From Shimia sp. SK013 (GTDB lineage: Bacteria > Pseudomonadota > Alphaproteobacteria > Rhodobacterales > Rhodobacteraceae): 64,000 nt of DNA. A program made the position numbers and the translations under genes. The notes beneath the pieces are model-generated. The model was not told where the DNA came from, made no database searches, and was given only the letters and a program-made list of their open reading frames with translations. The stretch spans positions 310,001-374,000 of the forward strand of contig NZ_LAJH01000009.1 in NCBI RefSeq assembly GCF_001292625.1, given 5' to 3'. Below are positions 10,590 to 61,009 of the stretch, piece after piece. The first letter of the stretch is position 1; each line of letters starts with the position of its first letter.

Positions 10590-10606
10590 TCAGTTACCCA
10601 AATAAA

Positions 10607-10633
10607 AAAGCCGCCTCAGGAGTGGGCGGCTTT
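10607..10633. terminator. Bidirectional terminator between the ketoacyl synthase and ialB-like genes
   Basis: AAAGCCGCC (10607-10615) pairs with GGCGGCTTT (10625-10633), with A-rich and T-rich flanks on both sides. It sits between convergent genes and can serve both. Confidence 0.88.
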
Positions 10634-10658
10634 CTCTTTATTTGAAAAGACTTAAGGA

Positions 10659-13256: not shown

Positions 13257-13282
13257 TTGCGCCACCGAACTATTTAACAACA

Positions 13283-13312
13283 AAAAAGGGCGCCCCGTGG
13301 GACGCCCTTTTT
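13283..13312. terminator. Bidirectional terminator between DUF853 and livM
   Basis: AAAAAGGGCG (13283-13292) pairs with CGCCCTTTTT (13303-13312). It separates the convergent genes and ends three bases before the livM stop. Confidence 0.88.
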
Positions 13313-13314
13313 CT

Positions 13315-15671: not shown

Positions 15672-16036
15672 TAGTTCAACACCTCGCATGTGCCAGTCAT
15701 GAACACGAAGTCATTTCCGGCTGAGGAAACATACGCACCGCGTCCAGAAGTCTGAACGGTGATGTACGTGTCAGTATCGGTCCCAGCAAAACGCAACTCT
15801 TCGCTGCCTTTCAACTGCTGAAAACACTCCATACCGTCGCTGCCTTCAAAGCTTGCGACCAGCGGGCAATCGTCACCCACGTTTTCGTCCCACACTCGCA
15901 GCGTTTGAGTGCCGCTGCTAAGGTTGGACTCCACTTGGCAAGTAACCAAATAGTCCGTGGCACCCACTGTGGAGCAAGACGACAACAAGGCAATTGCGGC
16001 TGCTGGGAGAGCTGTATTCTGAAGATGTGCTTGCAT
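15671..16036 (-). CDS. Small putative lipoprotein inside the liv operon
   Basis: The 121-residue product has a hydrophobic N-terminus ending in a lipobox-like LLSSCS, so Cys-21 could be lipid-modified after signal peptidase II cleavage. The N-region lacks Lys or Arg, which is unusual. The rest is beta-rich with three more cysteines (VTCQV, DDCPLV, GTCEVLN), and no family is recognised. It is three bases from the livF stop and overlaps livH at TAATG, so it is co-expressed with the transporter. A periplasmic accessory role is possible; nothing supports a specific function. Confidence 0.66.
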   Translation of the reverse strand: MQAHLQNTALPAAAIALLSSCSTVGATDYLVTCQVESNLSSGTQTLRVWDENVGDDCPLVASFEGSDGMECFQQLKGSEELRFAGTDTDTYITVQTSGRGAYVSSAGNDFVFMTGTCEVLN

Positions 16037-16039
16037 CAA

Positions 16040-16867
16040 TCAGCCCCCCAAGAACGACTTGCGGACTTCTTCGTCCGCGAGCAGGTCTTTGCCAGTGCCA
16101 GTAAAGGCATTGCGCCCCTGAACCAGCACATAGCCTTTGTCGGCAATTTCCAACGCCTGACGGGCGTTTTGTTCGACCATCAGGATCGGAATGCCGGTGC
16201 GGCTGACCTCGATGATGCGGTCAAACAATTCGTCCATCACGATGGGCGACACGCCTGCGGTCGGCTCATCCAGCATCAGAACCTTTGGCTGGGTCATCAA
16301 CGCGCGGCCCACGGCCACCTGTTGACGCTGACCACCTGACAGCTCGCCCGCAGGCTGGTTGCGCTTGTCCTTAAGGATCGGGAACAGGCCATAGATCTGC
16401 TCCATTGTGTCGGCAAAATCATCCTTGCGAATGAACGCGCCCATTTCGAGGTTTTCTTCGACCGTCATGGAGCCAAAGATATTGTTGGTCTGCGGCACAA
16501 ACCCCATGCCTTTTGACACGCGCACTTGCGGGCTGAGATTGGTGATGTCTTCACCATCCAGCCGCACCGAGCCTTGGCGCAGGTTCAGCATGCCAAACAC
16601 AGCTTTCATGCCCGTAGATTTGCCAGCACCGTTCGGGCCAACAATCACGGCAATCTCGCCCGGGTTCACGGCAATCGTGCAGTCATGCAGGATGTCCGGC
16701 CCGTCTTTGCCATAGCCACCGGTCATGCTGTCGCCGACCAGAAACGCGTCTGTTGTGTTCATTTCTTTGCCAGTCCCGACAGCAGGAGTCATCTCTCCGC
16801 CGCCTTTGGGATTGGTGATCGAGGCATCTTTGTTGCCACGATCGTCTTGATACGGATTGCCCGTCAT
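16040..16867 (-). CDS. livF: LivF-type ABC ATPase
   Basis: This 275-residue cytosolic ATPase powers the Liv importer. Walker A is GPNGAGKST, the signature ELSGGQRQQ, and Walker B VLMLDEPTAGVSP. The first 40 or so residues are polar, not part of the ATPase fold, and absent from E. coli LivF. The ATG at 16867 has GGGGAG six bases upstream, so the extension is probably real; an internal Met at about residue 36 is the alternative. It follows livG after 64 bases. Confidence 0.93.
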   Translation of the reverse strand: MTGNPYQDDRGNKDASITNPKGGGEMTPAVGTGKEMNTTDAFLVGDSMTGGYGKDGPDILHDCTIAVNPGEIAVIVGPNGAGKSTGMKAVFGMLNLRQGSVRLDGEDITNLSPQVRVSKGMGFVPQTNNIFGSMTVEENLEMGAFIRKDDFADTMEQIYGLFPILKDKRNQPAGELSGGQRQQVAVGRALMTQPKVLMLDEPTAGVSPIVMDELFDRIIEVSRTGIPILMVEQNARQALEIADKGYVLVQGRNAFTGTGKDLLADEEVRKSFLGG

Positions 16868-16931
16868 CACTCACTCCCCGCTGAATTTGCACTGTCGCTT
16901 TGCAGCCGTTTTACCGACGTTCTGCAGCGTC

Positions 16932-17714
16932 TCATGCGTTCAGCTTTTCCTTGTTTTTAAGCCCGGTGCCGAGGTACGCCTCGATCACCTGTTCATTGGC
17001 CTTGATCTCATCCAACGTGCCTTGGGCAAGCACTTTGCCCTCGGCCATACAGATCACCGGATCGCAAAGGCGGCCGATGAAATCCATGTCGTGTTCGATC
17101 ACCACAAAGGTATAATTGCGCTCTTTGTTGAGCCGGATAATCGCATCGCCAATGGTGTTCAGCAGCGTGCGGTTCACACCCGCGCCGACCTCGTCCAAGA
17201 ACACGATCTTGGCGTCCACCATCATCGTGCGGCCAAGTTCCAGAAGCTTCTTCTGACCACCGGAGACCTGACCGGCCTTGTGGTCGGAAAGATGTTCAAT
17301 GGTAAGAAATTCAAGCACTTCGTCGGCCTTGGCCCGCAATGCGCGCTCCTCATCCGCGATGCGTTTGCGGCCAAACCATGTGTTCCAAAGCGTTTCACCA
17401 GATTGCGCGCCGGGCACCATCATCAGGTTTTCGCGGCAGCTCATCGAGCTGAATTCATGCGCGATCTGGAACGTCCGCAGCAGGCCCTTGTGAAAAAGTG
17501 TGTGCGGCGGCAGTCCAGTGATGTCTTCGCCGTCCATGGTCACGCGACCGGACGTTGGTTCAAGAACGCCAGCGATTACATTGAAAAGAGTGGTTTTTCC
17601 GGCACCGTTTGGACCGATGAGACCGGTGATGGATCCCGGTTCGATACGAAGGCTGGCACCGTCAACAGCACGAAAGCCCCCAAAATGTTTGTGAACGTCT
17701 TCAACGACGATCAT
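16932..17714 (-). CDS. livG: LivG-type ABC ATPase
   Basis: The 260-residue ATPase is the second nucleotide-binding subunit of the importer. Walker A is GPNGAGKTT, the signature QVSGGQKKLLELG, and Walker B KIVFLDEVGAGVN, with the LivG-type NRTLLNTIGDAI and EHDMDFIGRLCD segments. In Walker B the usual proline after Glu is Val. A terminator-like hairpin lies between it and the binding-protein gene upstream, which probably lowers transporter expression relative to the binding protein. Confidence 0.93.
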   Translation of the reverse strand: MIVVEDVHKHFGGFRAVDGASLRIEPGSITGLIGPNGAGKTTLFNVIAGVLEPTSGRVTMDGEDITGLPPHTLFHKGLLRTFQIAHEFSSMSCRENLMMVPGAQSGETLWNTWFGRKRIADEERALRAKADEVLEFLTIEHLSDHKAGQVSGGQKKLLELGRTMMVDAKIVFLDEVGAGVNRTLLNTIGDAIIRLNKERNYTFVVIEHDMDFIGRLCDPVICMAEGKVLAQGTLDEIKANEQVIEAYLGTGLKNKEKLNA

Positions 17715-47349: not shown

Positions 47350-47439
47350 GGAGAGGTGCCGGAGTGGTCGAACGGGGCGGTCTCGAAAACCGTTGAGCCT
47401 TCACGGGTTCCCAGGGTTCGAATCCCTGTCTCTCCGCCA
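47350..47439 (+). tRNA. tRNA-Ser, anticodon CGA
   Basis: This 90-nt tRNA has the acceptor GGAGAGG with TCTCTCC (one G-U), discriminator G, encoded CCA and the long variable arm of class II tRNAs. The anticodon loop CTCGAAA in stem GCGGT/ACCGT gives CGA (reads UCG). The T loop is TTCGAAT. An integrase remnant starts 133 bases downstream. Confidence 0.96.
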
Positions 47440-47478
47440 CTAACCATCTTATAAAAAACAGCTATTTTAGAATTTACG

Positions 47479-47492
47479 CGTCAAAATTGACG
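47479..47492. repeat. Inverted repeat between tRNA-Ser and the integrase remnant
   Basis: CGTCAA and TTGACG are inverted with a 2-bp spacer, 40 bases past the tRNA. It could be a recombinase or regulator binding site of the former island; this is a guess. Confidence 0.3.
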
Positions 47493-47572
47493 TGAAGTTG
47501 CGCATAACCGACTCTGGGTTAGCGTTACACATCTCTTACACAAAATGACACATGTTGGAGGTGCGTAAAAAA

Positions 47573-47755
47573 ATGGCCGAAAAACACTCGATTCTGGGCG
47601 GTAAAGATCGCGTCTACAAGCGAACCGGCAGCCATGTTTGGCAAAGTTCCGTTTATTTGGGCGGCAAAAACCACCGCGTGAGCAGCACGGTATAAAGTCT
47701 GGCTAGCACTAAGGATTTTGCCGAAGAGTGGGCCTTATCGCCGCGAGGCAAGCAG
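47573..47755 (+). pseudogene. Tyrosine site-specific integrase, N-terminal remnant
   Basis: Frame 47573-47695 encodes 40 residues, starting MAEKHSILGGKDRVYKRTGS and including VWQSSVYLGGKNHRVSS, which look like the arm-type DNA-binding start of tyrosine integrases. After an in-frame TAA at 47693, the same frame continues with SLASTKDFAEEWAL, as expected of these proteins. Similarity then fades; no catalytic domain follows. TTGGAG precedes the ATG. Its place just after tRNA-Ser and its direction away from it fit an island integrase. It is broken and not functional. Confidence 0.72.
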
Positions 47756-48133
47756 CGACACGGGGCGTTGCTGGACGAGCGGAGCTTCGCCTTTTGCCGT
47801 ACATGCGATCTGCGAGTGAGGAAAGCAGCGCGCCAGTGGCCTGAGCTACATTCAATCCTTTCGAATCCGGGTCACTTAATTGCTATCTTCGGCACACAGT
47901 TTTCCTAATCACAGGAGCGGACCACTCCGAATAGGGGAGACTCATCGTTTTTTGTTTCGTCATAATTGGTTAGGCCAAATGCGTGTCTTGCGACCGAAAA
48001 TCCGCGCACGTTGAAGGATCCATTTTGGCATCCGGTACACGGTTTATTCATAAAACAAAGGAATTTTGGCCAGCGATTCGGACTGTGAGCTTTCCAATGC
48101 TTCGGACGAAAATCCCAAAAAGGACCTTTGACT
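47756..48133. other. Non-coding region after the integrase remnant
   Basis: No gene is recognised in these 378 bases. A 9-base piece identical to the tRNA T-arm (TTCGAATCC) lies near 47860, too short to call an attachment-site copy. A minus-strand open frame (47905-48219) overlaps the next gene and is rejected. AAAAAGGA near 48116 is the ribosome site of the next gene. Confidence 0.5.
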
Positions 48134-48862
48134 ATGTTCAAACAATTTGTTGCCTCTACAATTATCGGCTTTGCCTTCGCCACTGGCGGCGCTTCGATCG
48201 CCTCGGCAGAGCCGATCAAGACCTATGCGGCCGTATTGCCTCCATTCTCAATTGGTGAACCTGACCTGCCAGGCATTTCACACGAACTTCTGCTTGAGAT
48301 CAGTGCGCGAACCGACTTGGAATTCGACATTGAATATCTGCCGTTCAAACGTATGACCAAGCAAATCCAAGAAACACCTGACTCCCTTGTGATGACGGCA
48401 CTTCGCAGCCCCGCTCGAGAAGATCTGTTTAATTGGATTGTCGAGGTAATCGTCACAAACGAGGTTTTTGCCACGACATCCAAGCCGGTCAACTCCATTG
48501 AGGAAGCACGGTCTGTTGGCACGGTTACCTCTCTGATGGGGTCGCCAAGGACCAAGCGTCTGAAAGAGGCTGGCATTTCAGAGATAAACGAAGCGGTGGA
48601 CACGCTCACTTCCGCGCGCATGCTCCAAGGGGGGCGCGTAGACGCTTGGTATACCTTTGATCACCGCGCCCGTTTTGTGACAAAAAGTGCAGGCTTTGAC
48701 CCCTCGAGTATTGTCCTTGGAGCGCCGATTAAAAAGGCGCCGATGTGGCTTGCTTCCAATCTGACGTTCGATCCGGAAATCGCCGCTCAGCTAAAGGCTG
48801 CCATTGAAGAGCTTCAGGCAGATGGCACCTACGATGCGATCGTAGCAAAGTATATCCAATAG
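48134..48862 (+). CDS. Periplasmic solute-binding protein (SBP_bac_3-like), orphan
   Basis: The 242-residue product has a Sec signal (to about residue 26, GGASIASAEP) and a type II periplasmic binding fold: YAAVLPPFSIGEPDLPGIS, SLVMTALRSPAREDLFNW, and the C-terminal ELQADGTYDAIVAKYIQ. No permease or ATPase gene is near. Two-component genes follow after about 250 bases, so it may deliver a ligand signal to a sensor instead of feeding a transporter. That link is inference. Confidence 0.83.
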   Translation: MFKQFVASTIIGFAFATGGASIASAEPIKTYAAVLPPFSIGEPDLPGISHELLLEISARTDLEFDIEYLPFKRMTKQIQETPDSLVMTALRSPAREDLFNWIVEVIVTNEVFATTSKPVNSIEEARSVGTVTSLMGSPRTKRLKEAGISEINEAVDTLTSARMLQGGRVDAWYTFDHRARFVTKSAGFDPSSIVLGAPIKKAPMWLASNLTFDPEIAAQLKAAIEELQADGTYDAIVAKYIQ

Positions 48863-48978
48863 AGCGTTCTTAAGCCGCAGCATGCGCAGTGATGACCGCA
48901 AAACGGTTGTCACTGCGTCAGGTGCCCCAAGATTTTTAGACGGCTTTTTGGTAGTTTTGAAACCAAGGAGAGGCGGAT

Positions 48979-49089
48979 ATGAGCGAGGAAATACGGTTTA
49001 CGGACGCGCTCAAACACACCAACAACGTCATGCTGGCGCCCGTCGACTATGAAACAGAACGAAATAAATTGAACGAGGCAGGCGTTTAG
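48979..49089 (+). pseudogene. Possible transposase C-terminal fragment or small ORF
   Basis: The 36-codon frame encodes a peptide ending MLAPVDYETERNKLNEAGV. This ending resembles the C-termini of some IS3-type transposases, as far as can be judged from memory. A strong ribosome-like AAGGAG precedes it, so a genuine small protein is an alternative. No IS ends or other transposase pieces are seen around it. Confidence 0.38.
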
Positions 49090-49114
49090 GAAACTAGGGG
49101 CACCTCAAGACGCG

Positions 49115-49732
49115 CTACTTAAACTTGTCTTCAAGAGCCTGAAGAGCCGCCTGAGTACGGTTCTTAGCGCCGAGTTTTGCGAGGATTTTCTTCACATGGA
49201 GTTTGATTGTTACTTCCTGAAGATCAAGATCCCGAGCAATCTCTTTGTTAGACTTGCCGGCGCACAACCCTCTGAGCGTTTCACGTTCCCGTTCAGTTAG
49301 GCCGCGATAGTCCGTAGAGTTTCCGGGCTGCGCAGCTTCGACGGCCAGATCAAATGGGAAGTATCGCTCGCCGGACAGTACAAAGCGGACTGCGTTCGCC
49401 AGCGATCCCGCCCCCAAGGATTTCGGGAAAAAACCGACGGCTCCAGTTCCCATGGCCTCCTGAGCAACTTCTGGTGTTGCCACGCCTGACATCAACGCAA
49501 ACTTTACCGCAGGGTGTGCAGTTGCTGCGGCCTTCAAACCCGAAAGACCATCCATTCCGGGCATCTGATAATCCAAAATACATAGATCAAAAAGTGTCGC
49601 CCCCGCCAGTTTTTCCATGGATTCACCAAGGCTTGACGCGGTTTCAATCGTGAAACCGTCAGACTGCGCGAGATAGGCTGCGATCGTGTCCCGGACCAAA
49701 TCATGGTCGTCTGCGACTAGTACATTCGCCAC
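49115..49732 (-). CDS. NarL/LuxR-type response regulator
   Basis: The 205-residue regulator has a receiver domain with D54 (LCILDYQMPGMDG) and acidic pocket VADDHD, and a C-terminal GerE HTH (LTERERETLRGLCAGKSNKEIA, truncated at the recognition helix IKLHVKKILAKLG). It is divergent from the sensor gene pair 49893-52908 and is the likely final target of the hybrid kinase through its HPt domain. This pairing is inferred from proximity. Confidence 0.92.
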   Translation of the reverse strand: MANVLVADDHDLVRDTIAAYLAQSDGFTIETASSLGESMEKLAGATLFDLCILDYQMPGMDGLSGLKAAATAHPAVKFALMSGVATPEVAQEAMGTGAVGFFPKSLGAGSLANAVRFVLSGERYFPFDLAVEAAQPGNSTDYRGLTERERETLRGLCAGKSNKEIARDLDLQEVTIKLHVKKILAKLGAKNRTQAALQALEDKFK

Positions 49733-49892
49733 TTCGTTACTCCTTTAACACACCCACCACGTGCAACTATGCCTCGCGAAAGGCGCCCGATCTAGTCCAG
49801 TCGTATACTTAAGTATAGCTCCCTACCCCAATGCTTTCCCACGAGTAGGTTAAATTCTGACAAACCGTTGCTTGCAAACTTGGAGGTGTGCA

Positions 49893-50366
49893 ATGAAGTA
49901 TTCATCGATATTTTCCGTAGTTGCCTCGCTGGTTTTCAGCCCGGGTGTGGTGTTGGCCGAGGGGCATTCAGTAAGCGTTCAGGGACCAGATGGATCGTCC
50001 AGAAAGTTCTCCTTAGAGACCCTGGACAATCTTCCCCAGACATCCTTTGAAACATCGACCATTTGGACCGACGGCGTCGTCGCCTTTTCTGGTGTCTCTT
50101 TGAGCGCCATCTTGGATGAAGCGGGCTTTTCCGGCGCAATCGTAAGAATGTCAGCACTAAATGACTACTCTGTCGATTTTCCAATGGCGGAAATTGGAAA
50201 AGACTATCCGATTGTTGCAACCCGTATGAACGGCACAGAAATGCCGGTGCGCGACAAAGGCCCATACTGGATGGTATTTCCGTATGACGCCGATCCGTCT
50301 TACCGTACAAAAACGGCCTACGCGCGTTCTGTCTGGCAACTAAGCAAACTTTTGGTCATAAAATAA
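49893..50366 (+). CDS. Exported molybdopterin-oxidoreductase-like protein without catalytic cysteine
   Basis: The 157-residue product has a Sec signal (MKYSSIFSVVASLVFSPGVV, cleavage near residue 24) and a small domain resembling the oxidoreductase molybdopterin-binding fold (WTDGVVAFSGVSLSAILDEAG, YWMVFPYDADPSYRTKTAYA). There is no cysteine in the whole protein, so it cannot bind molybdenum through the usual Cys ligand and is probably not an enzyme. It precedes the hybrid kinase by 31 bases. A periplasmic ligand-sensing partner is a reasonable guess. GGAGG precedes the ATG. Confidence 0.77.
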   Translation: MKYSSIFSVVASLVFSPGVVLAEGHSVSVQGPDGSSRKFSLETLDNLPQTSFETSTIWTDGVVAFSGVSLSAILDEAGFSGAIVRMSALNDYSVDFPMAEIGKDYPIVATRMNGTEMPVRDKGPYWMVFPYDADPSYRTKTAYARSVWQLSKLLVIK

Positions 50367-50397
50367 CGTAGGACGTCCACGTAAACGGAATGCCAGC

Positions 50398-52908
50398 TTG
50401 ATAAAACGCTTTGCAATTTATGGGGCTATTTCGGGCCTAACAATCTTGTTGATCCTGCTGTGGTCAGGGCTTCCGGGCCAGCTTCGTGCAATATTGATCG
50501 CTGAAACCGACGACACACAATGGACGGTTTTCCAACTTGAAACCGAATTCGCAAACCTGAGCGTTGCTTTGGCGCAAGCCGAAAACGCTCCTGCACCGGA
50601 CAGTTCAGCGCTTCGTTTTAGGACCGACATTACGCTGAGCCGGGTGAATTTGGTCACCAAAGGATTGGGGCGCGACCTCTGGGTTGAAAGTCCGGAGGCA
50701 CGCGAAATAATTGCGCGGCTCGAAGGTTTCACCAGAGCCTCAACAGCCTTGATCGACAAATTAGGGGATCTTTCCAAACAAGACATTGTCCGCCTTAGCG
50801 CTTTGACCAACAGCCTGCGTCCGGACGTTCGGCGGCTTGCTATTCTCGGAGTGACGCTTGGAACCGAAGCAAAAGAGGCAGAGAGGGTTGCGTTTGCCAA
50901 CCAGCTTCGCGGCGTTGGGTTTTTGGCAATTGTCCTGATTGCCGGCATCGTCGGCGCTCTCCTTTTCCTCGACCGTTTGCTTGTACGTGCCCGCAGCAAA
51001 GACGATGCCTTGCGGGCAACGGCCGATCGATTGTCCTCAACTGTGACCGCGTCACTGGATGGCATCGTGATTTCCAATCAAGCGGGCGAAGTCATTGAAT
51101 TCAACGAAGCCGCTGTTGGCATATTCGGCTGGTCCCGCGTCGAAATTCTAGGTCAAAAAATGTCGGCGACATTTGTTCCGCAACACCATCGATCCGCGCA
51201 CGAAAGCGGTATGGAGCGCTACCTTTCCACAGGGGATCCACACGTAATCGATGCCGGTAGGATCGAGTTGTCCGCTCTGCGTAAATCCGGCGAGGAGTTC
51301 CCTATCGAGCTCAACATCACGTCAACCCAACGGGACGGCGAAAAAGTCTTCATTGCCTACATAAGAGACATCAGCGAGCGCAAAATCAATGAACAGAAAC
51401 TGGTCGAGGCGAGAGATCGGGCTGAGCGCGCGGACAAAGCAAAATCCCAGTTTCTGACGGTGATGAGTCACGAAATGCGCACACCACTGAATGGGATTTT
51501 GGGTGTTCTCGATCTTCTGAAAACGACACCACTGGACAAGAAACAACAACGTTTCGTTCAGGTGGCGGCGGCCTCCGGTGAAATCCTGTTGGAGAATGTG
51601 AACGAGGCCCTCGACATCACCCGCATCGAATCCGGGGTTATGTCGCTGTCTCCCGACGAGTTTTCACTTCGCGCAACGGTTCAACGGGTCGCCGACGTCC
51701 TCCGCACACTGGCAGATGAAAAAGGTCTCTCACTGGAAGTGGACATAGATACCTCAATGAACGGCAGTTTTTTTGGCGATGGCAGTCGGATAAATCAAAT
51801 CCTTACAAATCTAATCGGCAACGCGATCAAGTTCACCGACGAAGGTGGAGTTACTGTTGCGGTTGAGGGTATCCATGGTCCCGAAACAACACTGGTTCGG
51901 ATTAAGGTTCGCGACACAGGAAACGGCATTCCAGCGGACAAGTTTGAGGCCATTTTCGAGGATTTTGTTGCTCTTGCCCGTTCAGAAGGGCGACAAAACA
52001 GAGGCGACGGTCTCGGCCTGTCAATTTCGCGAAAGATTGCGCGCCTGATGGACGGAGATCTGAAAGTCGACAGCCATAACGGCGATGGCAGCACCTTCAC
52101 TCTGTCGGTTCCTCTGCTACGTGTTGCCACCGAATTTTCCGAAACACAGCCTGAGGCGCGTCATGTTTCCTCGGAGATCATTAAGTCGGTTCTTATCGTT
52201 GAAGACAACGCAATCAACCGCTCGGTGCTGCGCGAAATGTTAACCGGCTTTGGGCATGCCGTGACCGAAGCTGACAATGGCCTTGAAGGTTTTAAGAAGG
52301 CACAAGGCACAAAGTTCGATTTGATCATCATGGATATCAGTATGCCCTTCATGGACGGTATTGAGGCAACACGCCGCATCCGTCAGGGAAATGGTCCAAA
52401 TGCCCAAACCTATATTCTTGGTCTGACCGCCCACGGACGGGAGGAATACCGATCAAAATCCAAGACCGCCGGTATGGACGGGTTCTGCACAAAACCGCTC
52501 CGCCTTTCCGAATTGAAGCTCACTCTGTCTGGGATCCGCGAAAACGACCGATCCGGCACCAGTTTGGAGGACCCGATTGCGCTCGAGGTTATTGATGACC
52601 TTCGCAAAGCGCTCGGAGACACGAAAACACAGCAAACGGCAAATCGGTTTTTTGCAGAATTGAAAGAAGGTCTTGGGGCCCTCGCCCAAAAATCACCCAC
52701 CACCGAGGCAACCGTAATATCGGAAATGGTACACAAGCTGCGCGGCTCTGCAGGTTTGTTGGGATTGCAGAGCGTCGAAAACGCATTGGATCGGGCAAGC
52801 TCTATCGAAAAGACTGAGGATTACCTGGCAGCGCTCAAACAAGCACAAACGGAGGCTGATGCAGCCGCCGTTGCCATCAAGTCTTTCCTTTCGCCATCAG
52901 ACGGGTAA
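50398..52908 (+). CDS. Hybrid sensor histidine kinase (PAS-HisKA-HATPase-REC-HPt)
   Basis: The 836-residue inner membrane protein has TM1 (about 7-27), a helical periplasmic domain, TM2 (about 171-192), a PAS domain (about 210-330), HisKA with H358 (SQFLTVMSHEMRTPLNG), HATPase with NLIGNAIKFTDEGG and DTGNGIP, a receiver with D646 (LIIMDISMPFMDG) and a C-terminal HPt with H779 (MVHKLRGSAGLLG). This is the full multistep phosphorelay set. The start is a TTG at 50398; no better codon is in frame. It is probably co-transcribed with the preceding gene. Confidence 0.93.
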   Translation: MIKRFAIYGAISGLTILLILLWSGLPGQLRAILIAETDDTQWTVFQLETEFANLSVALAQAENAPAPDSSALRFRTDITLSRVNLVTKGLGRDLWVESPEAREIIARLEGFTRASTALIDKLGDLSKQDIVRLSALTNSLRPDVRRLAILGVTLGTEAKEAERVAFANQLRGVGFLAIVLIAGIVGALLFLDRLLVRARSKDDALRATADRLSSTVTASLDGIVISNQAGEVIEFNEAAVGIFGWSRVEILGQKMSATFVPQHHRSAHESGMERYLSTGDPHVIDAGRIELSALRKSGEEFPIELNITSTQRDGEKVFIAYIRDISERKINEQKLVEARDRAERADKAKSQFLTVMSHEMRTPLNGILGVLDLLKTTPLDKKQQRFVQVAAASGEILLENVNEALDITRIESGVMSLSPDEFSLRATVQRVADVLRTLADEKGLSLEVDIDTSMNGSFFGDGSRINQILTNLIGNAIKFTDEGGVTVAVEGIHGPETTLVRIKVRDTGNGIPADKFEAIFEDFVALARSEGRQNRGDGLGLSISRKIARLMDGDLKVDSHNGDGSTFTLSVPLLRVATEFSETQPEARHVSSEIIKSVLIVEDNAINRSVLREMLTGFGHAVTEADNGLEGFKKAQGTKFDLIIMDISMPFMDGIEATRRIRQGNGPNAQTYILGLTAHGREEYRSKSKTAGMDGFCTKPLRLSELKLTLSGIRENDRSGTSLEDPIALEVIDDLRKALGDTKTQQTANRFFAELKEGLGALAQKSPTTEATVISEMVHKLRGSAGLLGLQSVENALDRASSIEKTEDYLAALKQAQTEADAAAVAIKSFLSPSDG

Positions 52909-53053
52909 CGCGACTATACTTTAGCATATGCCGCCCATGCTTCAGAACCCGAGAATACTCTTTCACCATCACCCGCGGCGCGGTCGTCTATCATAGTCTG
53001 AACCCATCTTGAAACGCGCTGATAGCGCATTTGAATTTGGGTGAGGTACTCCG

Positions 53054-54265
53054 ATGGGTAAGAATGAAAAACAGATTATTGTGGTCGGCGGCGACGGATT
53101 TTGTGGCTGGCCGACGGCGCTTCATCTTTCGAAGCTTGGTCATAAAGTTACGATTGTCGACAACCTGTCTCGGCGCTGGATCGATGAAAAAATGGGTGCC
53201 GACAGCCTGACACCTATTGCCACTGTAGAAGAGCGTTTGGCGGCTTGGACCGAAGCGACCGGTCTTGTCATCGACTTCGAAAGCATCGACGTAGCGCGCG
53301 AGTTCAACCGGTTTACCGCGCTGCTTGCTTCGGTCAAGCCGGATGCGATTGTCCACTTTGGTGAACAACGTGCGGCGCCCTACTCCATGAAAGGGATCGA
53401 AGAGAAACGCTATACGGTCGACAACAATATTTCCGCCACACACAACATTCTGGCTGCCGTGACCGAACTGGGGATCGACCCACATGTCGTGCACCTTGGC
53501 ACGATGGGTGTGTATGGGTATGACGACGACGGCATCGAAATCCCCGAAGGGTATCTTAACGTTTACATTCCAGGGGATGACCAGCGGATTTACCAGCGTG
53601 ACATTCTGTACCCGACCAATCCTGGCAGCGTCTATCACATGACGAAATCGATGGATCAGATCCTGTTTCAGTTCTACGCAAAAAATGACGGGTTGCGGAT
53701 CACCGATCTTCACCAGGGCATCGTCTGGGGCACGCAAACCGACGAAACAAAGCTCGACCCTCGTTTGGTCAACCGGTTCGATTACGACGGTGATTATGGC
53801 ACGGTTTTGAACCGCTTTTTGATGCAAGCAGTTGTCGGCCACCCGTTGACCGTTCACGGCACCGGCGGGCAAACCCGCGCCTTTATCCACATCAAAGACA
53901 CAGTCCGCTGTATCGCACTGGCCGTGGAAAACCCACCTGCGCCAAATGGCAAGGTCGCCATTTTGAACCAGATGACAGAAACCCACACAGTGCGTGATCT
54001 GGCGATGTTGGTTGCCAAAATTTCAGGTGCAAAGATTGCCAACGTGGACAATCCCCGAAACGAAGCTGCCGAAAACGACCTCCGTGTCTCAAACAAAACT
54101 TTCCTGGATTTGGGCTTGCAGCCAACGACGCTTGCCGATGGTCTGATGGAAGAAACACAGGAGGTTGCAGCGAAGTTCGCTCACAGGTGCATCCACAAAA
54201 TGATCCCATGTGTGTCGACCTGGACCGACAATCAACGCCCCGGCGTGGTTAAGAAAGCGGCCTGA
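53054..54265 (+). CDS. UDP-sulfoquinovose synthase-like SDR (SqdB family)
   Basis: The 403-residue extended SDR matches SqdB: GGDGFCGWPTALHLSKLGH (NAD site), DSLTPIATVEERLAAW, VHFGEQRAAPYSM, YHMTKS with Y194 and K198, DLHQGIVWGTQTDE, RLVNRFDYDGDYGTVLNRF and GHPLTVHGTGGQTRAFIHI. SqdB joins sulfite to a UDP-glucose-derived intermediate to make UDP-sulfoquinovose. Here it is followed by BcsB-like and synthase-like genes, not by the sulfolipid genes sqdC, sqdD or sqdX, so the sugar may go to a polymer or glycan. Relatives acting on other sugars cannot be excluded. Confidence 0.86.
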   Translation: MGKNEKQIIVVGGDGFCGWPTALHLSKLGHKVTIVDNLSRRWIDEKMGADSLTPIATVEERLAAWTEATGLVIDFESIDVAREFNRFTALLASVKPDAIVHFGEQRAAPYSMKGIEEKRYTVDNNISATHNILAAVTELGIDPHVVHLGTMGVYGYDDDGIEIPEGYLNVYIPGDDQRIYQRDILYPTNPGSVYHMTKSMDQILFQFYAKNDGLRITDLHQGIVWGTQTDETKLDPRLVNRFDYDGDYGTVLNRFLMQAVVGHPLTVHGTGGQTRAFIHIKDTVRCIALAVENPPAPNGKVAILNQMTETHTVRDLAMLVAKISGAKIANVDNPRNEAAENDLRVSNKTFLDLGLQPTTLADGLMEETQEVAAKFAHRCIHKMIPCVSTWTDNQRPGVVKKAA

Positions 54266-54345
54266 TACCTGCTTGATCCTTGAGGGCGCTTGGAGGTGCG
54301 CTCAGGGATCTTCCGGTATTTCAGGTAAATGTGTGGTGACCTCAA

Positions 54346-55878
54346 ATGCGATTGATTGGCATGGGCCTCGCTGCTTTCCTTTTGGCTGGCATCGCCCTTT
54401 TTCTCTCACGATCCGAATCCCTGCAACTCGGCACGCGAACGCTTGTCGAAGTCTTTCAGGGTCCCCAATTGCGATTTGAAACCTCGCATCATTCGCCACA
54501 AAGCGCGACAGGGCGATCTCATGTGATCGCTCAGCGCATCAACCCGGATGAGCCTATCATCTTATCCGGCTTACCTGCCTATCAGGGTGCGACGTTTTTT
54601 TTGCCAACGGATTCGCGCCCTACTTCTGGACACCTCCAACTTGATGTGACGGTTCAAGTGCTGGCTGGGGTTGAGGGCGTTCTACGCGTCTCAATCGGAA
54701 ACTCCCGCCGCGCCGATCTGTTGCTGCGTCCAGGAGAGGCAGGGCGTTCTCTCAGGATTGACCTCACCACGGAAGATCTCACGAGAGAGCGGCTGGTCGT
54801 TTCGTTCAGTCTCCAAGGGGAAAGCCCACTCACCCCTTGCGGCAAAGACGAAGGCTTAGAAGCCGTCGTCGAGATCGAAACGACCAGCGCCCTTTTTCTG
54901 GCACTAGACAAACCAACACTCAGTGTTCGGGACCGCGCGAACATGGCGGGCCGTCGGGTGGCATTGCTTTGGAGTAATGACCCCCAGCAGAGCGTCGTGG
55001 CCTTGCTCGCAGCACACGAGTTGTCTGTCTCGGGTTGGGAAGTGCAATTTGGAGGGGGCGCCGACGCAATCAATCCAGAAACCGCGGTCATGGCTTTGCC
55101 TTCAAATGGCCCGACAAAACAGCCCGAATTTGCCTGGTCTGATGCTCTCGCACCGACTAGCTCCGTCTTTGGCCTACGCCGGTTCCAAGGCATGCACTCA
55201 TGGCGGATCCGATACGATTTGATGGAGGCCCAAAATCCGATTCTGCCTGCTGAATTCTCTTTGGACATTGTGCTCGGCGCAATGCTTTTTGAGTCCGGGT
55301 GGCAAGTAACAGTGACACTCAATGGTCGCCTGATTGACCAAGTGCTGTTAAACGCTGGTGCCACAAGACTGACCCGTTCAATTGATTTATCCGACAGCCG
55401 TCCGGCTCGGAAAAACGTCATTGAAATTGTAGCGTGGTCCAGTTCTGAACCAGCAGGAAATTGCAATGAGGGTCCGGTCCTTCTTGCGGAATTGACAAGT
55501 CAAACGGCGCTAATCGCGGGATCAACGTCTTTCTCTGCACCGCTTATGACGGTCCGCAACACGCTTGCACAGGCAGATGGGCGCCAGATTGCCGTCGATA
55601 ATGCGCTGACAGCACCGGAGGCGGAAGTCGCCGTTGCATTGCTGTCCAACGTTTTGCCGGACAGACCACAAACTGAGGACTTGGCGAATGTGCCGACAGT
55701 TCATGTCTTGCCGCGCGGCGCGTCGTTGTCTCGGTGGCAGGTTGCATCAATGGACTCCGTTTGGATGATTTCCTTTGACGAAAACGGAAACGCGTTGGCG
55801 CACATTTTATCGGATTATCGCGGATCCGAGACAACCGCTGTCACTTTACTTGTGGATTTGTCGGAGGTCGCAACATGA
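54346..55878 (+). CDS. BcsB-like periplasmic/membrane-anchored protein
   Basis: The 510-residue protein has an N-terminal hydrophobic anchor or signal (about 5-20) and a beta-rich body with two repeats of jelly-roll type. The pattern resembles the cellulose synthase regulatory subunit BcsB: LLRPGEAGRSLRIDL, then VSFSLQGESPLTPCGK with a conserved cysteine. Unlike BcsB it lacks an obvious C-terminal membrane helix. It overlaps the next gene, a synthase-like GT2, by four bases, as bcsA and bcsB are paired. It probably guides the polymer through the periplasm; similarity is weak. Confidence 0.64.
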   Translation: MRLIGMGLAAFLLAGIALFLSRSESLQLGTRTLVEVFQGPQLRFETSHHSPQSATGRSHVIAQRINPDEPIILSGLPAYQGATFFLPTDSRPTSGHLQLDVTVQVLAGVEGVLRVSIGNSRRADLLLRPGEAGRSLRIDLTTEDLTRERLVVSFSLQGESPLTPCGKDEGLEAVVEIETTSALFLALDKPTLSVRDRANMAGRRVALLWSNDPQQSVVALLAAHELSVSGWEVQFGGGADAINPETAVMALPSNGPTKQPEFAWSDALAPTSSVFGLRRFQGMHSWRIRYDLMEAQNPILPAEFSLDIVLGAMLFESGWQVTVTLNGRLIDQVLLNAGATRLTRSIDLSDSRPARKNVIEIVAWSSSEPAGNCNEGPVLLAELTSQTALIAGSTSFSAPLMTVRNTLAQADGRQIAVDNALTAPEAEVAVALLSNVLPDRPQTEDLANVPTVHVLPRGASLSRWQVASMDSVWMISFDENGNALAHILSDYRGSETTAVTLLVDLSEVAT

Positions 55879-57716
55879 CAACAGAAATCCAAAGCGACAA
55901 TCGCGACCAGATCAGTTTCATCTCAGTTGACAGTGCGCCCAAAAAGTTCGCGGGATTTATCCCGGTCTGGCGCGCGCCCGCCACCCTAGCGGTCTTCACT
56001 TTGATCGCTGCAATGCTTCTTTGGATGGTGAATACTCCCGCGGGCGCGCAGATCTTTCCGAACCGGGATTTTGTGTTTTCTCCCTACGAAGGCAACCATG
56101 CGATTGCGATCCGAATTTTTCTGGTCTCGTTCTATATTGCCTTTGGCTGCTTTAGTTCGGGTACCCTGATCGCCCGCCTGTCCTTTGCGGCAGATATGAC
56201 CATCACTTTCCTCATGATTTGTGGCCTGCTCGACCTTGCAAACCTCTCCGCACAATATTGGCTTAACGTATCATTTTCGTTGCACTTTAGCGCCATAGTC
56301 TCCGGCTTGGTCGGGTTCGCGGTCTATTCCTTTAAGCTACTTGAGCGCGGCTTTATGCCCTCAAGGATCAGAATTGAACACAGAGCCGTCAAATCGACCC
56401 GCGCTGTCATTCGTCTTTCCACCGCCTTATTGGTCGCGTCGATGGTGTCACTTTGGGTCGGATCGATGGATCTCGACGCAGTCAAAACCATGCGGTCCTG
56501 GACACTTCTGGGCGGCATCGGTCCCGGTGTGTTTCTGTTCCTGCCCGTTCTATTCGGGCAACTCTATTTGCTGGCAATCTGGGATATAATGGTGGCAAAA
56601 ACCGTAAAGTACCGTCCGCCGATTTCGGTCGTCGTACCCGCGCATAACGAGCAGTACATTATAGAAGATACTATCCGGGCCATGGACACAGCGGCCAAAC
56701 ACTATGGCGGTGAAGTCCACATTTTGATCATGAATAACAACTCGTCAGATGACACCGAAGGCATCGCCCGCGCGACGCTTGCCGCTTGCGAAGCCGCATC
56801 CGGCAAAGTCATCAATGTCCCCAAACCCGGAAAATCAAATGCCTTAAACGCAGGACTCGATGCGGTTCAGACCGAATTCTTCATCCGTGTGGACGCCGAT
56901 ACTCTTGTTGGTGAAGACAACTTTTCCCGTGCGATGCCTTTCTTTACTGATCCCAGTGTCGGCGTAGTGGGCGGCGTTCCCGTGCCCCCGGGAGGAGCCC
57001 TTTTTGACCGCGCGCGCCTTCTCGAAGTTCAGGTAAAACACGGATTCTATTCAGTCGCCATGGGGGCCGTGAACGGCGTTGTCGGCATTCCGGGCATGTT
57101 CGTTGTCATGCGAACGGAACATCCCAGATATCTTGGCGGATTTGTCGAAGGGATGAACGGCGAAGACACCGACCTCTCTCTCCGGATCGGTGAATTGGGA
57201 TATCACTCTGTCGTTGATCCAAAGTTGCGCTACGTGTCTGAAGTACCGGCCTCATACAAACACATGCGCGAACAGAGAATGCGCTGGTTCCGGTCTGTCT
57301 ATCACATCTCTTCGCGGTGCCGGGATCTGATCTATTCGTCGAACCGATCGTTGCGCGGCAAGGTCATCTTACCCTACATGTTGGTGAATTCGGCCCGTCG
57401 GGCGATGCTTGTTCCGCTCATCATATTTGGCGCTCTGGAGACTCTGTTTGCCTTTAACCCAATGAGCCCGATTGTCTGGCAATCCGTCGTGGCAGTAACA
57501 ACGGGCGCGCCATCGATTGTGGCCATTTGCGCCACCCTACTGAATGGTGTTCCCAAAGGGATAATCGCGCTGCCTGAGTACCTGATTTTCAGAGTGATGC
57601 GGGCCTATTTCACACTTGAATCCATGTTGAGCATTTTGATTGATGTTGACGCGGAAAACCTTGAACGCGCAACAACCCGTGACTTACAAAAATCAGGACC
57701 GGTTGGCATAGCGTAG
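55875..57716 (+). CDS. Membrane processive-type glycosyltransferase (GT2, cellulose-synthase-like)
   Basis: The 613-residue protein has about six N-terminal membrane segments, a GT-A domain from about residue 248 (ISVVVPAHNE), and further C-terminal membrane segments. All synthase motifs are seen: NNNSSDDTEG, DAD at 340-342, GED with D431, and QRMRW at 467-471, the last being the polymer-binding QxxRW-type motif. It has no PilZ domain, unlike BcsA. With the BcsB-like partner and a SqdB-like enzyme it may polymerise and export a special polysaccharide. Confidence 0.87.
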   Translation: MTTEIQSDNRDQISFISVDSAPKKFAGFIPVWRAPATLAVFTLIAAMLLWMVNTPAGAQIFPNRDFVFSPYEGNHAIAIRIFLVSFYIAFGCFSSGTLIARLSFAADMTITFLMICGLLDLANLSAQYWLNVSFSLHFSAIVSGLVGFAVYSFKLLERGFMPSRIRIEHRAVKSTRAVIRLSTALLVASMVSLWVGSMDLDAVKTMRSWTLLGGIGPGVFLFLPVLFGQLYLLAIWDIMVAKTVKYRPPISVVVPAHNEQYIIEDTIRAMDTAAKHYGGEVHILIMNNNSSDDTEGIARATLAACEAASGKVINVPKPGKSNALNAGLDAVQTEFFIRVDADTLVGEDNFSRAMPFFTDPSVGVVGGVPVPPGGALFDRARLLEVQVKHGFYSVAMGAVNGVVGIPGMFVVMRTEHPRYLGGFVEGMNGEDTDLSLRIGELGYHSVVDPKLRYVSEVPASYKHMREQRMRWFRSVYHISSRCRDLIYSSNRSLRGKVILPYMLVNSARRAMLVPLIIFGALETLFAFNPMSPIVWQSVVAVTTGAPSIVAICATLLNGVPKGIIALPEYLIFRVMRAYFTLESMLSILIDVDAENLERATTRDLQKSGPVGIA

Positions 57717-57888: not shown

Positions 57889-58002
57889 GATCCTCTCATC
57901 ATCTCTTTTCTACGTCGGCACCCAACCCGAAAACTTTACACCCTGCGCCATAGCGGCTAGCAGTTCTCTTGACTGCAGCCTTGCTTGACGAAGGAACCGA
58001 CC

Positions 58003-59031
58003 ATGAAAATCGCCCACCGTGAGATCGGACCCAATCAGCCGCCTTTGGTCATTGCCGAAATCGGCATCAACCACGGCGGAGACCTTGCTGTTGCCAAGGA
58101 AATGGCACGTCTTGCGGCGCTTTCGGGCTGCGAGATGATCAAGCACCAGACCCACTTCGTCGAAGATGAAATGACCGATGAAGCCAAGGAGATATTTCCA
58201 CCCAACGCGGATGTATCGATCTGGGACGTCATGGCGCAATGCGCCCTGTCAGCCGAAGACGAACTTGAATTGATGCGCTATTGCCAAGAGCTTGGCATGA
58301 TCTTCATTTCTACGCCGTTTTCGCGCAAAGCCGCCGATTTTCTGGCCGCCGCAGACGTGCCGGCATTTAAAATCGGCTCAGGCGAAGCCGACAACCTTCC
58401 CTTGATCCGCCACATCGCCTCGTTTGGTAAGCCGGTGATCATGTCGACCGGCATGCAAACCATCGAAACCATGCGCCGTTCCGTTGCCATTCTCGAGGAC
58501 GCTGGCATCGACTACGCCTTGCTGGAATGTACAAATCTGTACCCGTCGCCGCCCGAAATTGTGTCCCTGCGCGGGGTAACAGACCTCAAAGAAGCATTCC
58601 CAAACGCCGTCGTCGGGTTTTCCGACCACTCAATCGGCCCGGAAATGGCGCTGGCGTCCGTGGCCTTGGGCGCCTGCATTTTGGAACGCCACTACACAGA
58701 CACTCGCTACCGCGCCGGCCCCGATATCATCAACTCAATGGATCCGTCGGAACTGCGCCACCTTATCGACCGCTCCCGCGAGATCTGGATCGCGGCAAAC
58801 AATCCAAAACAGCGCACTCAGGCCGAAGAGTCGGTTTATGCATTCGCCCGTGCGTCTGTTGTGGCCGACAAAGACCTGCCCGAAGGCCACCTCATCACCG
58901 AAGCCGACATCTGGGCCCGCCGCCCGGGCTCCGGCGAAATTGCGGGGTATGATTTTGACAAAGTGGTCGGCAAGACACTGAACAAAGCCGTGAGCCGTAA
59001 CACTCAGTTGCGCTGGTCGGATTTGGACTAG
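58003..59031 (+). CDS. neuB: NeuB-type nonulosonic acid synthase
   Basis: The 342-residue enzyme condenses phosphoenolpyruvate with a six-carbon amino sugar to make a nine-carbon nonulosonic acid (sialic, legionaminic or similar). The TIM-barrel domain has VIAEIGINHGGD, HQTHFVEDEMT and KIGSGEADNLPLIRHI; the C-terminal SAF (antifreeze-like) domain begins near residue 283. AAGGAA precedes the ATG at 58003. It starts the plus-strand half of the NulO cluster. The product's exact sugar cannot be told from NeuB alone. Confidence 0.93.
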   Translation: MKIAHREIGPNQPPLVIAEIGINHGGDLAVAKEMARLAALSGCEMIKHQTHFVEDEMTDEAKEIFPPNADVSIWDVMAQCALSAEDELELMRYCQELGMIFISTPFSRKAADFLAAADVPAFKIGSGEADNLPLIRHIASFGKPVIMSTGMQTIETMRRSVAILEDAGIDYALLECTNLYPSPPEIVSLRGVTDLKEAFPNAVVGFSDHSIGPEMALASVALGACILERHYTDTRYRAGPDIINSMDPSELRHLIDRSREIWIAANNPKQRTQAEESVYAFARASVVADKDLPEGHLITEADIWARRPGSGEIAGYDFDKVVGKTLNKAVSRNTQLRWSDLD

Positions 59032-59041
59032 GGACTCTGGT

Positions 59042-59161
59042 ATGAGCAAACTAGACGCGTATTGCCGCCACAAAGACTGGCCAGTGATTGCGATGGCCTC
59101 AAATGCCTGTGCGGCTCAGACCGAAAACCATGAGCACGTGAAGAAGCGGACACCGAAATGA
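59042..59161 (+). CDS. Short ORF coupled to the sulfotransferase gene
   Basis: A 39-codon frame starts 11 bases after neuB with GGGA-like bases before the ATG and ends at the sulfotransferase start in an ATGA overlap. The peptide (MSKLDAYCRHKDWPVIAMAS, then polar) has no known family. It may encode a small protein or only serve for translational coupling. Confidence 0.3.
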   Translation: MSKLDAYCRHKDWPVIAMASNACAAQTENHEHVKKRTPK

Positions 59162-59829
59162 TACTGTCGCTGGAATATAATTTTATTTTTTTGCATGTTC
59201 CAAAGACGGCCGGCCAATCGCTCATGGCCGCCCTTCTCCCGTTCAGCAGGGACGCAGACAAAAAATCCCTTTTGCGCCGCTTTTCACGGCGTCTGCCAAT
59301 TCAGGAAGCCGCTGACAAAGCACACTTTAAAGGACATGAAACCGCTCGTGGCTTTATTCGAAAACTTGGCCGGCCAGAGTTCGACCGCTTCAAAACTTTT
59401 GGCGTGGTGCGCAATCCCTACACGCATGCAGTTTCCCATTTTGAATATATGAAACAGTATCGCAACCGTCGGACAGCCGAGAAGGTCGGCGCCATGACGT
59501 TTACCGAATACCTCGAATTTCGCCTTAAACCCGCTTTGCCTACTGAGCATTTTTTTGCGCATTTGCCAGATCAGACGCACTTCGTCGTCGACAGAGACGG
59601 CAAGATCGCGGTCGATCGGTTGTTGCGTTTTGAAACCCTTGACCAAGATTTTTCTGAGGCGGCGGAGTGGCTAGGACTAGACGGGGTTTCCATCGCGCGA
59701 AGCAACGTCACCAAAGCCGCCAAAAAACCCATCACAGACTACTTTGATGATCAAAATCTGGCCTTGATGCACGAGCTTTACCAGCGCGATTTTGACATCT
59801 TAGGGTACGCCCGCGACGTGCCTGTCTAA
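59158..59829 (+). CDS. Sulfotransferase (sulfotransferase_2 family)
   Basis: The 223-residue cytosolic-type enzyme has the PAPS 5'-phosphosulfate loop FLHVPKTAGQSLM and the 3'-phosphate motif FGVVRNPYTHAVSHF. It transfers sulfate from PAPS, most likely to a carbohydrate. Sitting between neuB and neuC it may sulfate a NulO-containing glycan, or act on the polymer of the neighbouring operon. Acceptor unknown. Many relatives in marine Rhodobacteraceae lie in glycan clusters. Confidence 0.86.
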   Translation: MILSLEYNFIFLHVPKTAGQSLMAALLPFSRDADKKSLLRRFSRRLPIQEAADKAHFKGHETARGFIRKLGRPEFDRFKTFGVVRNPYTHAVSHFEYMKQYRNRRTAEKVGAMTFTEYLEFRLKPALPTEHFFAHLPDQTHFVVDRDGKIAVDRLLRFETLDQDFSEAAEWLGLDGVSIARSNVTKAAKKPITDYFDDQNLALMHELYQRDFDILGYARDVPV

Positions 59830-59887
59830 CCAAAGCTATCTCTCAAACGGGCTTGCACACGTCCCAAAACCGCGCCATGAGAATTAC

Positions 59888-61009
59888 ATGACCCGATCAA
59901 TTCTCTTTCTCACTGGCACCCGTGCCGACTTTGGTAAACTGGAACCGCTCGCAGCAGCCCTGCAGGCGGCGGATTTTTCAGTCAGCTATTTCGTCACCGG
60001 CATGCACATGCTGGATCGCTATGGCTTGACCAAGATCGAAGTACACCGTCAACACGGCGCCACGGTGCATGAGTTCCTAAATCAACGCCCTGATGATCCA
60101 CAAGATATCATTCTGGCCAAAACCGTTGTGGGCTTTTCTGACTATGTCACCGAAACCCGTCCGGATCTTGTGGTGGTGCATGGTGATCGCATCGAGGCGC
60201 TTGCGGGGGCCTTGGTGGCAGCGACCAATTACATTCCGTGCGCCCATATTGAGGGCGGCGAAGTGTCTGGCACGATCGACGAGATCTTCCGGCATTGTAA
60301 CACCAAACTGTCCAGCCATCATTTTGTGAGTTCCGAAGACGCCAAGCGCCGGATTATGGCCATGGGAGAACCCGAGGGCTCAATCCATGTAATAGGCTCG
60401 CCAGAGCTGGATTTTCACGCGGCCCCGTCTGGCGTCACTCTGGAGGACGTCAAAGCGCGTTACGAAATTCCGTTTGATGATTTTGGACTGGTGACATTTC
60501 ACCCGGTGACCTCGGAACAAGAAACTATCGGTGCACAGGCTCATGCCCTGTTTAGCGAGCTGGAGGCATCAGGACGGAACTTTGTAGTGATTGCTCCGAA
60601 CAACGATCCGGGCTCCACGGCAATCTTTGCAGAGCTGGATACGCTGCCTACCGACCGGTTCCGGCAATTTCCGTCAATGCGGTTTAATCACTTTTCCGAG
60701 TTGATGAAGACCGCTGCCTGCATGATCGGCAACTCGTCCGCCGGCGTACGCGAAGCACCCTTTCTTGGCCTGCCGTCGCTCGATATCGGCACGCGACAGA
60801 CCAATCGTGCCCAATCGGGATCGGTGGTCACCTGCGCGGCAGACGACCGCGCCGCGATCTCCGACTTTCTAACCACTCAATGGGGCCAACGGCACGCGCC
60901 ACACACAGGTTTCGGCGAAGGTCGCGCTGCGGATCGTTTTGCTGAAATCCTGCAGGACCCGGATTTCTGGGATCAAACGCTGCAAAAAGCCTTCCATGAC
61001 ATCGACTAA
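59888..61009 (+). CDS. neuC: NeuC-type hydrolysing UDP-GlcNAc 2-epimerase
   Basis: The 373-residue GT-B-fold enzyme (LTGTRADFGKLEPLAAAL at the start, HGDRIEALAGALVA, HIEGGEVSGTIDE, GNSSAGVREAPFLGLPSL) converts UDP- or nucleotide-activated GlcNAc derivatives to ManNAc-type sugars, the substrate of NeuB. It may be the legionaminic acid homologue (LegG), which acts on a diNAc sugar. It is the last plus-strand gene of the cluster; its 3' end faces the Gfo/Idh gene. Confidence 0.92.
   Translation: MTRSILFLTGTRADFGKLEPLAAALQAADFSVSYFVTGMHMLDRYGLTKIEVHRQHGATVHEFLNQRPDDPQDIILAKTVVGFSDYVTETRPDLVVVHGDRIEALAGALVAATNYIPCAHIEGGEVSGTIDEIFRHCNTKLSSHHFVSSEDAKRRIMAMGEPEGSIHVIGSPELDFHAAPSGVTLEDVKARYEIPFDDFGLVTFHPVTSEQETIGAQAHALFSELEASGRNFVVIAPNNDPGSTAIFAELDTLPTDRFRQFPSMRFNHFSELMKTAACMIGNSSAGVREAPFLGLPSLDIGTRQTNRAQSGSVVTCAADDRAAISDFLTTQWGQRHAPHTGFGEGRAADRFAEILQDPDFWDQTLQKAFHDID

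Follow-up and report, generated by a model that had tools for sequence, protein, structure and literature searches.

A candidate pterin-to-polysaccharide cassette around a PruR–DTB pair in Shimia sp. SK013

What is sensed by a locus that encodes an exported solute-binding protein (SBP), a NarL-type regulator, a cysteine-free protein of the molybdenum-cofactor (Moco) fold and a multistep hybrid kinase, and which genes respond to it? The question is raised by a 64,000-nt stretch of Shimia sp. SK013 (contig NZ_LAJH01000009.1, positions 310,001 to 374,000), here called the window; coordinates are window positions unless another locus or contig is named. An earlier note on this DNA had taken the four genes as one unit. 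We find that the SBP is excluded by co-occurrence and that the unit extends to the right, to ∼57716. In the reading that we consider likely, six genes make up a PruR–DTB cassette that leads from a pterin through PruR, a kinase phosphorelay and a regulator to an operator and polysaccharide genes (Table 1).

In the proposed mechanism, a reduced pterin would be bound by PruR in the periplasm, and PruR would dock on the kinase’s periplasmic domain, which is predicted to be helical. Phosphate would then travel from H358 to D646 and H779 and on to D54 of the NarL-type regulator, which we propose as the end point of the phosphorelay. The regulator may bind box 1, in the intergenic region between its own gene and pruR, and so regulate itself; it may also bind box 2, ahead of the operon for the SqdB-like, BcsB-like and GT2 proteins, and thereby couple pterin state to surface polysaccharide. 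The sign of this control and the polymer made are points that we infer rather than observe. More tentatively, and with a little more doubt than confidence, we suggest that the six genes are a transferable and self-contained unit in which two copies of one operator link a periplasmic pterin (redox) receptor, its phosphorelay kinase and a dedicated regulator to an operon for sugar-polymer synthesis. Extracellular pterins would in this way control a matrix polymer transcriptionally, without cyclic di-GMP (c-di-GMP).

Six genes, a palindromic box and a polysaccharide operon

The six genes stand in the order regulator (minus strand), pruR, kinase, SqdB-like, BcsB-like and GT2. A congener (G690) has exactly these six genes, in a neighborhood unrelated to that of the window, and both boxes (CTATACTTCAGTATAG and CTATACCTCAGCATAG). 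Its proteins are identical to those of the window at 80% (regulator), 62% (PruR), 75–80% (kinase), 92% (SqdB-like), 68% (BcsB-like) and 90% (GT2) of positions. Among 24 genomes of the genus, these two carry the BcsB-like gene. Because the six genes alone are shared with the congener, the borders of the unit are fixed at 49115–57716.

For wider comparison, PruR was searched for in 295 genomes of the family and was present in 171. A first set of 40 places (L032–L071) was mostly best-ranked, with some best-ranked places near contig ends omitted and a few chosen otherwise: second copies (in the window’s own genome and G210), long open frames (G217 and G113) and G001. Adding 80 named loci of the species collection brought the total to 120 loci, with 111 distinct PruR proteins. 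The hold-out set was 40 lower-ranked family places that share no PruR with the 111. Class-wide, PruR was found at E ≤ 1e-8 in 63 of 385 genomes, four of them from the window’s family, and 40 of the places listed, mostly best-ranked, formed the outside-family set.

A homologue of the regulator lies divergent from pruR and at most 600 bp away in 75 of the 111 loci, 26 of the 40 hold-out loci and 1 of the 40 outside the family. When either orientation and up to 4.5 kb were allowed, these counts rose to 99, 34 and 4, respectively. By this homology the NarL-type regulator is conserved with PruR–DTB in Rhodobacteraceae, and we assign it to the PruR–kinase unit. The earlier description of it as NarL-type agrees with the receiver and GerE domains detected.

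Alignment of intergenic regions from the window and 22 near relatives revealed a palindrome, CTAT[AC]C-N4-G[TG]ATAG, before pruR and a similar copy before the next operon. We ranked positions with a symmetric matrix built solely from the regulator–pruR sites of other loci. In all 17 loci (the window and 16 relatives), the site before sqdB came first or second of ∼10,000–17,000 positions, the other top rank being the regulator–pruR site itself; a common box thus stands at both promoters. With a refined matrix (at least 9 bits, up to 260 bp upstream of pruR), a box was present in 91 of the 111 loci, at a median position of −96, compared with 23 of 2035 random stretches. The hold-out count matters because the matrix was fitted to the 111 loci, and there a box was present upstream of pruR in 31 of 40, compared with 15 of 1032 controls. 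The whole window contains exactly two matches of at least 10 bits, box 1 and box 2. Outside the family, a box was found in three of the four loci with the regulator and in none of the 36 without it (p = 4e-4). An exact-pattern search of 42 genomes returned 34 sites, compared with 2 for the reversed pattern: 14 just upstream of pruR, 1 before sqdB, 1 in a Ruegeria-type pruR locus and 18 elsewhere. Position 174 of the regulator is mostly Val with CTATAC boxes and mostly Pro with CTATCC boxes; this covariation, confounded by ancestry, suggests that position 174 may bear on box type. We rejected a reading of the boxes as terminators: the genes on either side of box 1 are divergent, and a scan that returned 12 terminator-like sites included neither box.

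The operon behind box 2 recurs in the same arrangement elsewhere. An SqdB-like gene lies just 3′ of the kinase in 16 of the 111 loci, and a BcsB-like gene is present in 15, each of which also has the SqdB-like and GT2 genes, in an unchanged order. The polymer is possibly built with a sulfoquinovose-type sugar. PilZ was not among the domain matches listed for the GT2 protein. Ruegeria/Leisingera-type loci have none of the three genes; they carry a WecG/TagA and sugar transferase fusion and GalU between the regulator and pruR. Their extra boxes stand before genes for chain-length-determinant-like (17), flippase-like (8), WecG/sugar transferase (7) and polysaccharide export (7) proteins, and the corresponding number for SqdB-like genes in window-type loci is 13. 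These target clusters come from 95 frames that flank boxes, among them some antisense artefacts. A single member of each was assigned with Pfam/NCBIfam; for the chain-length cluster, the assignment depends on an NCBIfam match under the cut-off. From the two types of locus together it follows that a single regulator family and a single box go with two different kinds of polysaccharide machinery.

Several points weigh against a cassette that works as proposed. The evidence is computational throughout. In the kinase, the Hpt match falls under the Pfam cut-off, and the docking scores (predicted template modeling score, pTM) reported below come without predicted aligned error and without a negative control. 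Refinement of the box matrix used the same 111 loci, which makes the count of 91 partly circular, and 20 of these loci have no box. Association between box and regulator is weak in the 111 (p = 0.039) and absent in the hold-out set (p = 0.60), where nearly all loci have the regulator; the within-family test is low in power. Of the 18 exact-pattern sites away from pruR loci, many fall within frames or beside unrelated genes, and few adjoin polysaccharide genes (a pyruvyl transferase and a mannose-1-phosphate guanylyltransferase). With 18 of 34 sites off-locus, the box pattern alone is therefore not specific at genome scale. Finally, a two-mismatch search of the window’s own genome found 2 places, and the reversed control also gave 4 strand-hits. 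Box sites also adjoin universal stress protein genes (L303, 4050, and L305, 4049; G240).

The alternative that survives best is that PruR–DTB and its regulator are autoregulatory only and that the polysaccharide operon and its box answer to a different regulator of the NarL family that has the same specificity, for example that of a second PruR set. The window’s own genome has such a second regulator–PruR–kinase set with a box of its own, CTATCCTTATGGATAG, and the same type of box occurs at loci for FIST-domain proteins and kinases. We nevertheless judge this alternative unlikely: in the congener, all six genes and the two boxes stand together in an unrelated neighborhood, and in the 15 BcsB-like loci the regulator always belongs to the window’s clade (57–67% identity).

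The second set of the own genome is complete and lies at L051, 8056–8574 (contig C14 near 168654), with its box at −91 of its pruR. Two loci from a genome-wide box search, L291 (5337–10067) and L292 (4192–14599), have the same box and encode a FIST-domain protein, a kinase and a member of the same regulator family (49–52% identity); no PruR was found in the fetched stretches. These loci are an apparent sister signaling system, and their pairing of regulator family and box also counts in favor of the cassette reading.

The pterin-binding protein and its kinase

The cassette reading depends on what the Moco-fold protein is. It has 157 residues and, as the earlier note had said, the Oxidored_molyb fold (PF00174, E = 2.3e-08) and no cysteine; its hydrophobic N terminus, judged by eye, ends in VLAEG, and it is apparently exported. 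Its closest matches among solved chains are “pterin binding proteins” or similar: 7kos, an Agrobacterium tumefaciens chain (Table 1), 7rkb (E = 3.1e-25), 7kom (E = 2.1e-21) and 7kp2 (E = 2.9e-18). One solved PruR relative has neopterin bound. The pterin-binding residues of A. tumefaciens PruR are N102, Y104 and W160 (PMC13259868). In the alignment with 7kos their counterparts in the window protein are N90, Y92 and W148, with a Tyr–Trp spacing of 56 residues in both. All of 19 family sequences keep Y92 and W148, and nearly all keep N90. PruR-type proteins are described as ∼170 residues long, without the Mo-ligating cysteine and with the pocket Trp, Tyr and Asn conserved (PMC13259868); length, lack of cysteine and pocket residues of the window protein all agree with this. 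In addition, the PruR part of a relative’s model scored Z 19.7–21.5 against crystal structures of PruR. By sequence, then, the protein is classed as a PruR-type pterin-binding protein, and it would be expected to bind a pterin.

The PF00174 match and the SUOX fold would also suit a small Mo enzyme or a molybdopterin-using redox sensor, a reading that we consider very improbable given nearest solved relatives that are PruR pterin-binding proteins, one of them neopterin-bound. A SUOX-family molybdoenzyme in particular was rejected, as the protein has no cysteine that could ligate Mo.

Of the six proteins, PruR has diverged most (62% identity for L309, 6836–7309, reverse complement, against the window gene, compared with 68–92% for the others), and its ligand preference is perhaps shifting. 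The ligand itself may be supplied by an enzyme of the same genome: a short-chain dehydrogenase/reductase (C26:41537–42271) has TGAGKRLG and YTLAK, a type of signature that marks pteridine reductases (PMC13259868). It shares 24% identity with Escherichia coli FolM. Of 15 FolM-like matches in the genome, 9 gave a frame with the TGX3XXG motif, and among these it alone has the diagnostic Arg. We regard it as a candidate PruA-type pteridine reductase.

The kinase gene starts 31 bases past the stop of pruR on the same strand, and its product is the multistep hybrid kinase that had been described, with PAS, HisKA, HATPase and receiver domains found and Hpt below threshold. A periplasmic region of ∼140 residues is flanked by two hydrophobic segments. 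The best NCBIfam model, TMAO_torS (E = 2.3e-106, under the equivalog cut-off as expected), agrees with the TorS/BaeS-like kinase output of a DTB partner. By Pfam the protein has neither GGDEF nor EAL, which sets it apart from PruR–DcpA. A kinase H-box motif follows pruR in 105 of the 111 loci, 37 of the 40 hold-out loci and 21 of the 40 outside the family, where several of the remaining loci are also kinase-like by eye and none has GGDEF. The W-x3-Q-x3-E form of the WX7E motif, sought by a regular expression in any frame, was present in 87, 27 and 25 of these loci, respectively. The arrangement of pruR and kinase matches the published PruR–DTB arrangement; the pair is therefore classed as a PruR–DTB system, a sensor of an already published kind and not a new one.

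For docking, the pruR–kinase pairs of relatives were read through the pruR stop as a single chain and modeled with AlphaFold2. Subject to the limits named above, the pair of a close relative (L139) reached pTM 0.82 and that of a distant one (L203) pTM 0.75, with mean per-residue confidence (pLDDT) of 88.6 and 89.9. The kinase’s periplasmic part was modeled as a helical bundle, for which a structure search gave no decisive match. As they concern relatives’ pairs, these models are only suggestive of contact between PruR and kinase. Covariation between PruR and the periplasmic domain in 170 pairs exceeded that of shuffled pairs (mean mutual information 0.282 vs. 0.234; top value after average product correction 0.28 vs. 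0.18). Since shared ancestry alone can produce such values, we set them aside as proof.

Borders of the cassette

The gene to the left of the regulator (48134–48862) encodes an exported SBP_bac_3 protein, and no transporter gene adjoins it, as had been noted. A homologue is found near PruR in 0 of the 111 loci, 0 of the 40 hold-out loci and 0 of the 40 outside the family (0 of 191). At E ≤ 1e-20 a homologue occurs in 1 of 149 family genomes, the window’s own, which also encodes a paralogue of 33% identity elsewhere. The congener’s cassette has neither the SBP nor the NeuB-like gene. Together, these results rule out the SBP as part of the cassette, and the co-occurrence of binding protein and kinase that marks SBP-dependent sensor kinases is not seen here. 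That the orphan SBP and the Moco-fold protein are both ligand receptors of the kinase, as the earlier note proposed from the adjoining SBP gene without a transporter, deserves the least credence of all, given 0 of 191 PruR loci, 1 of 149 genomes and the congener.

What stands of that model is its other half. A periplasmic receptor–kinase complex is favored for the Moco-fold protein and the kinase, as a PruR–DTB pair and by the docking of relatives’ pairs, and the co-occurrence that the earlier note had named as a check holds for PruR, kinase and regulator across family loci; it fails for the SBP. The pterin family, the operators and the polysaccharide operon had been overlooked.

The SBP gene directly follows a tRNA-Ser gene, and the stretch (47350–48862) includes a 40-residue open reading frame that gave nothing above cut-off in Pfam; it could be an insertion at the tRNA. 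On the other side, NeuB-like, sulfotransferase and UDP-GlcNAc 2-epimerase-like genes (57985–61009) follow the cassette in the window and are absent there in the congener. Because they are not beside the congener’s cassette, they are probably a separate glycan cluster.

Table 1. Features of the candidate cassette and their positions in the window
Feature	Position	Strand	Basis
NarL/LuxR-type response regulator, phosphoacceptor D54	49115..49732	-	Pfam Response_reg E 1.1e-19, GerE E 8.6e-19
Box 1, GTATACTTAAGTATAG, candidate operator between regulator gene and pruR	49803..49818	.	Matrix match of at least 10 bits
pruR, pterin-binding protein family, SUOX fold	49893..50366	+	Best PDB match 7kos, E 3.6e-27
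DTB-type hybrid kinase: transmembrane (TM) segment, periplasmic helical domain, TM segment, PAS, HisKA (H358), HATPase, receiver (D646), Hpt-like (H779)	50398..52908	+	Pfam/NCBIfam, hydropathy
WX7E motif WTVFQLETE (W42–E50), periplasmic domain of kinase	50521..50547	+	WX7E of PMC13259868, section 8
Box 2, CTATACTTTAGCATAT, candidate operator between kinase and polysaccharide operon	52914..52929	.	Second of 16 kb, after box 1, by a matrix from box-1 sites of other loci
SqdB-like NDP-sugar epimerase, UDP-sulfoquinovose synthase family	53054..54265	+	NF041015 E 6.9e-99, 331 bits vs. cut-off 575
BcsB-like protein	54346..55878	+	PF03170 E 6.8e-06
Membrane GT2 glycosyltransferase, PgaC/cellulose-synthase-like	55875..57716	+	PF13641 E 1.1e-20; TIGR03937 E 6.8e-20, under cut-off

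Comparison with known systems

PruR–DTB systems are already published and widespread, the example given in a 2026 review by their discoverers being Ruegeria pomeroyi WP_011045932.1 (PMC13259868). That system is a two-gene operon with a periplasmic PruR without the Mo-ligating cysteine and a kinase with a DcpA-type periplasmic domain, WX7E, PAS, HisKA, HATPase and receiver (PMC13259868). The window resembles it in these respects, with pruR and the kinase gene as a putative operon, PruR apparently exported and the DcpA-type domain judged by WX7E between two hydrophobic segments. The window differs in adding a divergent NarL-type regulator, a candidate operator and a polysaccharide operon. The review names none of these: “response regulator,” “promoter” and “exopolysaccharide” have 0 occurrences in it, and the output of DTB kinases is unnamed (PMC13259868). 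Our literature search, whose reach did not include the primary 2024 PNAS paper, turned up this review as the only paper on the system, and nothing listed there links DTB kinases to a regulator, an operator or an exopolysaccharide target. The new part thus appears to be the output, that is, regulator, operator and polysaccharide target.

QseG–QseE (9m08) likewise joins a periplasmic accessory protein to a kinase with a helical periplasmic domain. Its accessory protein, however, is unrelated, and the fold match (Z 11.6) is in a range that the tool describes as uninformative for helical bundles.

The closest functional parallel is PruR–DcpA of Agrobacterium tumefaciens, whose pterin receptor belongs to the same family and whose output is an adhesive polysaccharide and biofilm (PMC13259868). 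DcpA is of the GGDEF/EAL type and acts through c-di-GMP (PMC13259868), whereas the window encodes a kinase as the partner, and the route that we propose runs through transcription. If our reading is correct, it supplies the missing half of the PruR–DTB pathway, from regulator and operator to target genes, for the Rhodobacteraceae, which are abundant in the sea, and pterins would govern adhesion polysaccharides by two unrelated routes, through c-di-GMP in Agrobacterium and through transcription here.

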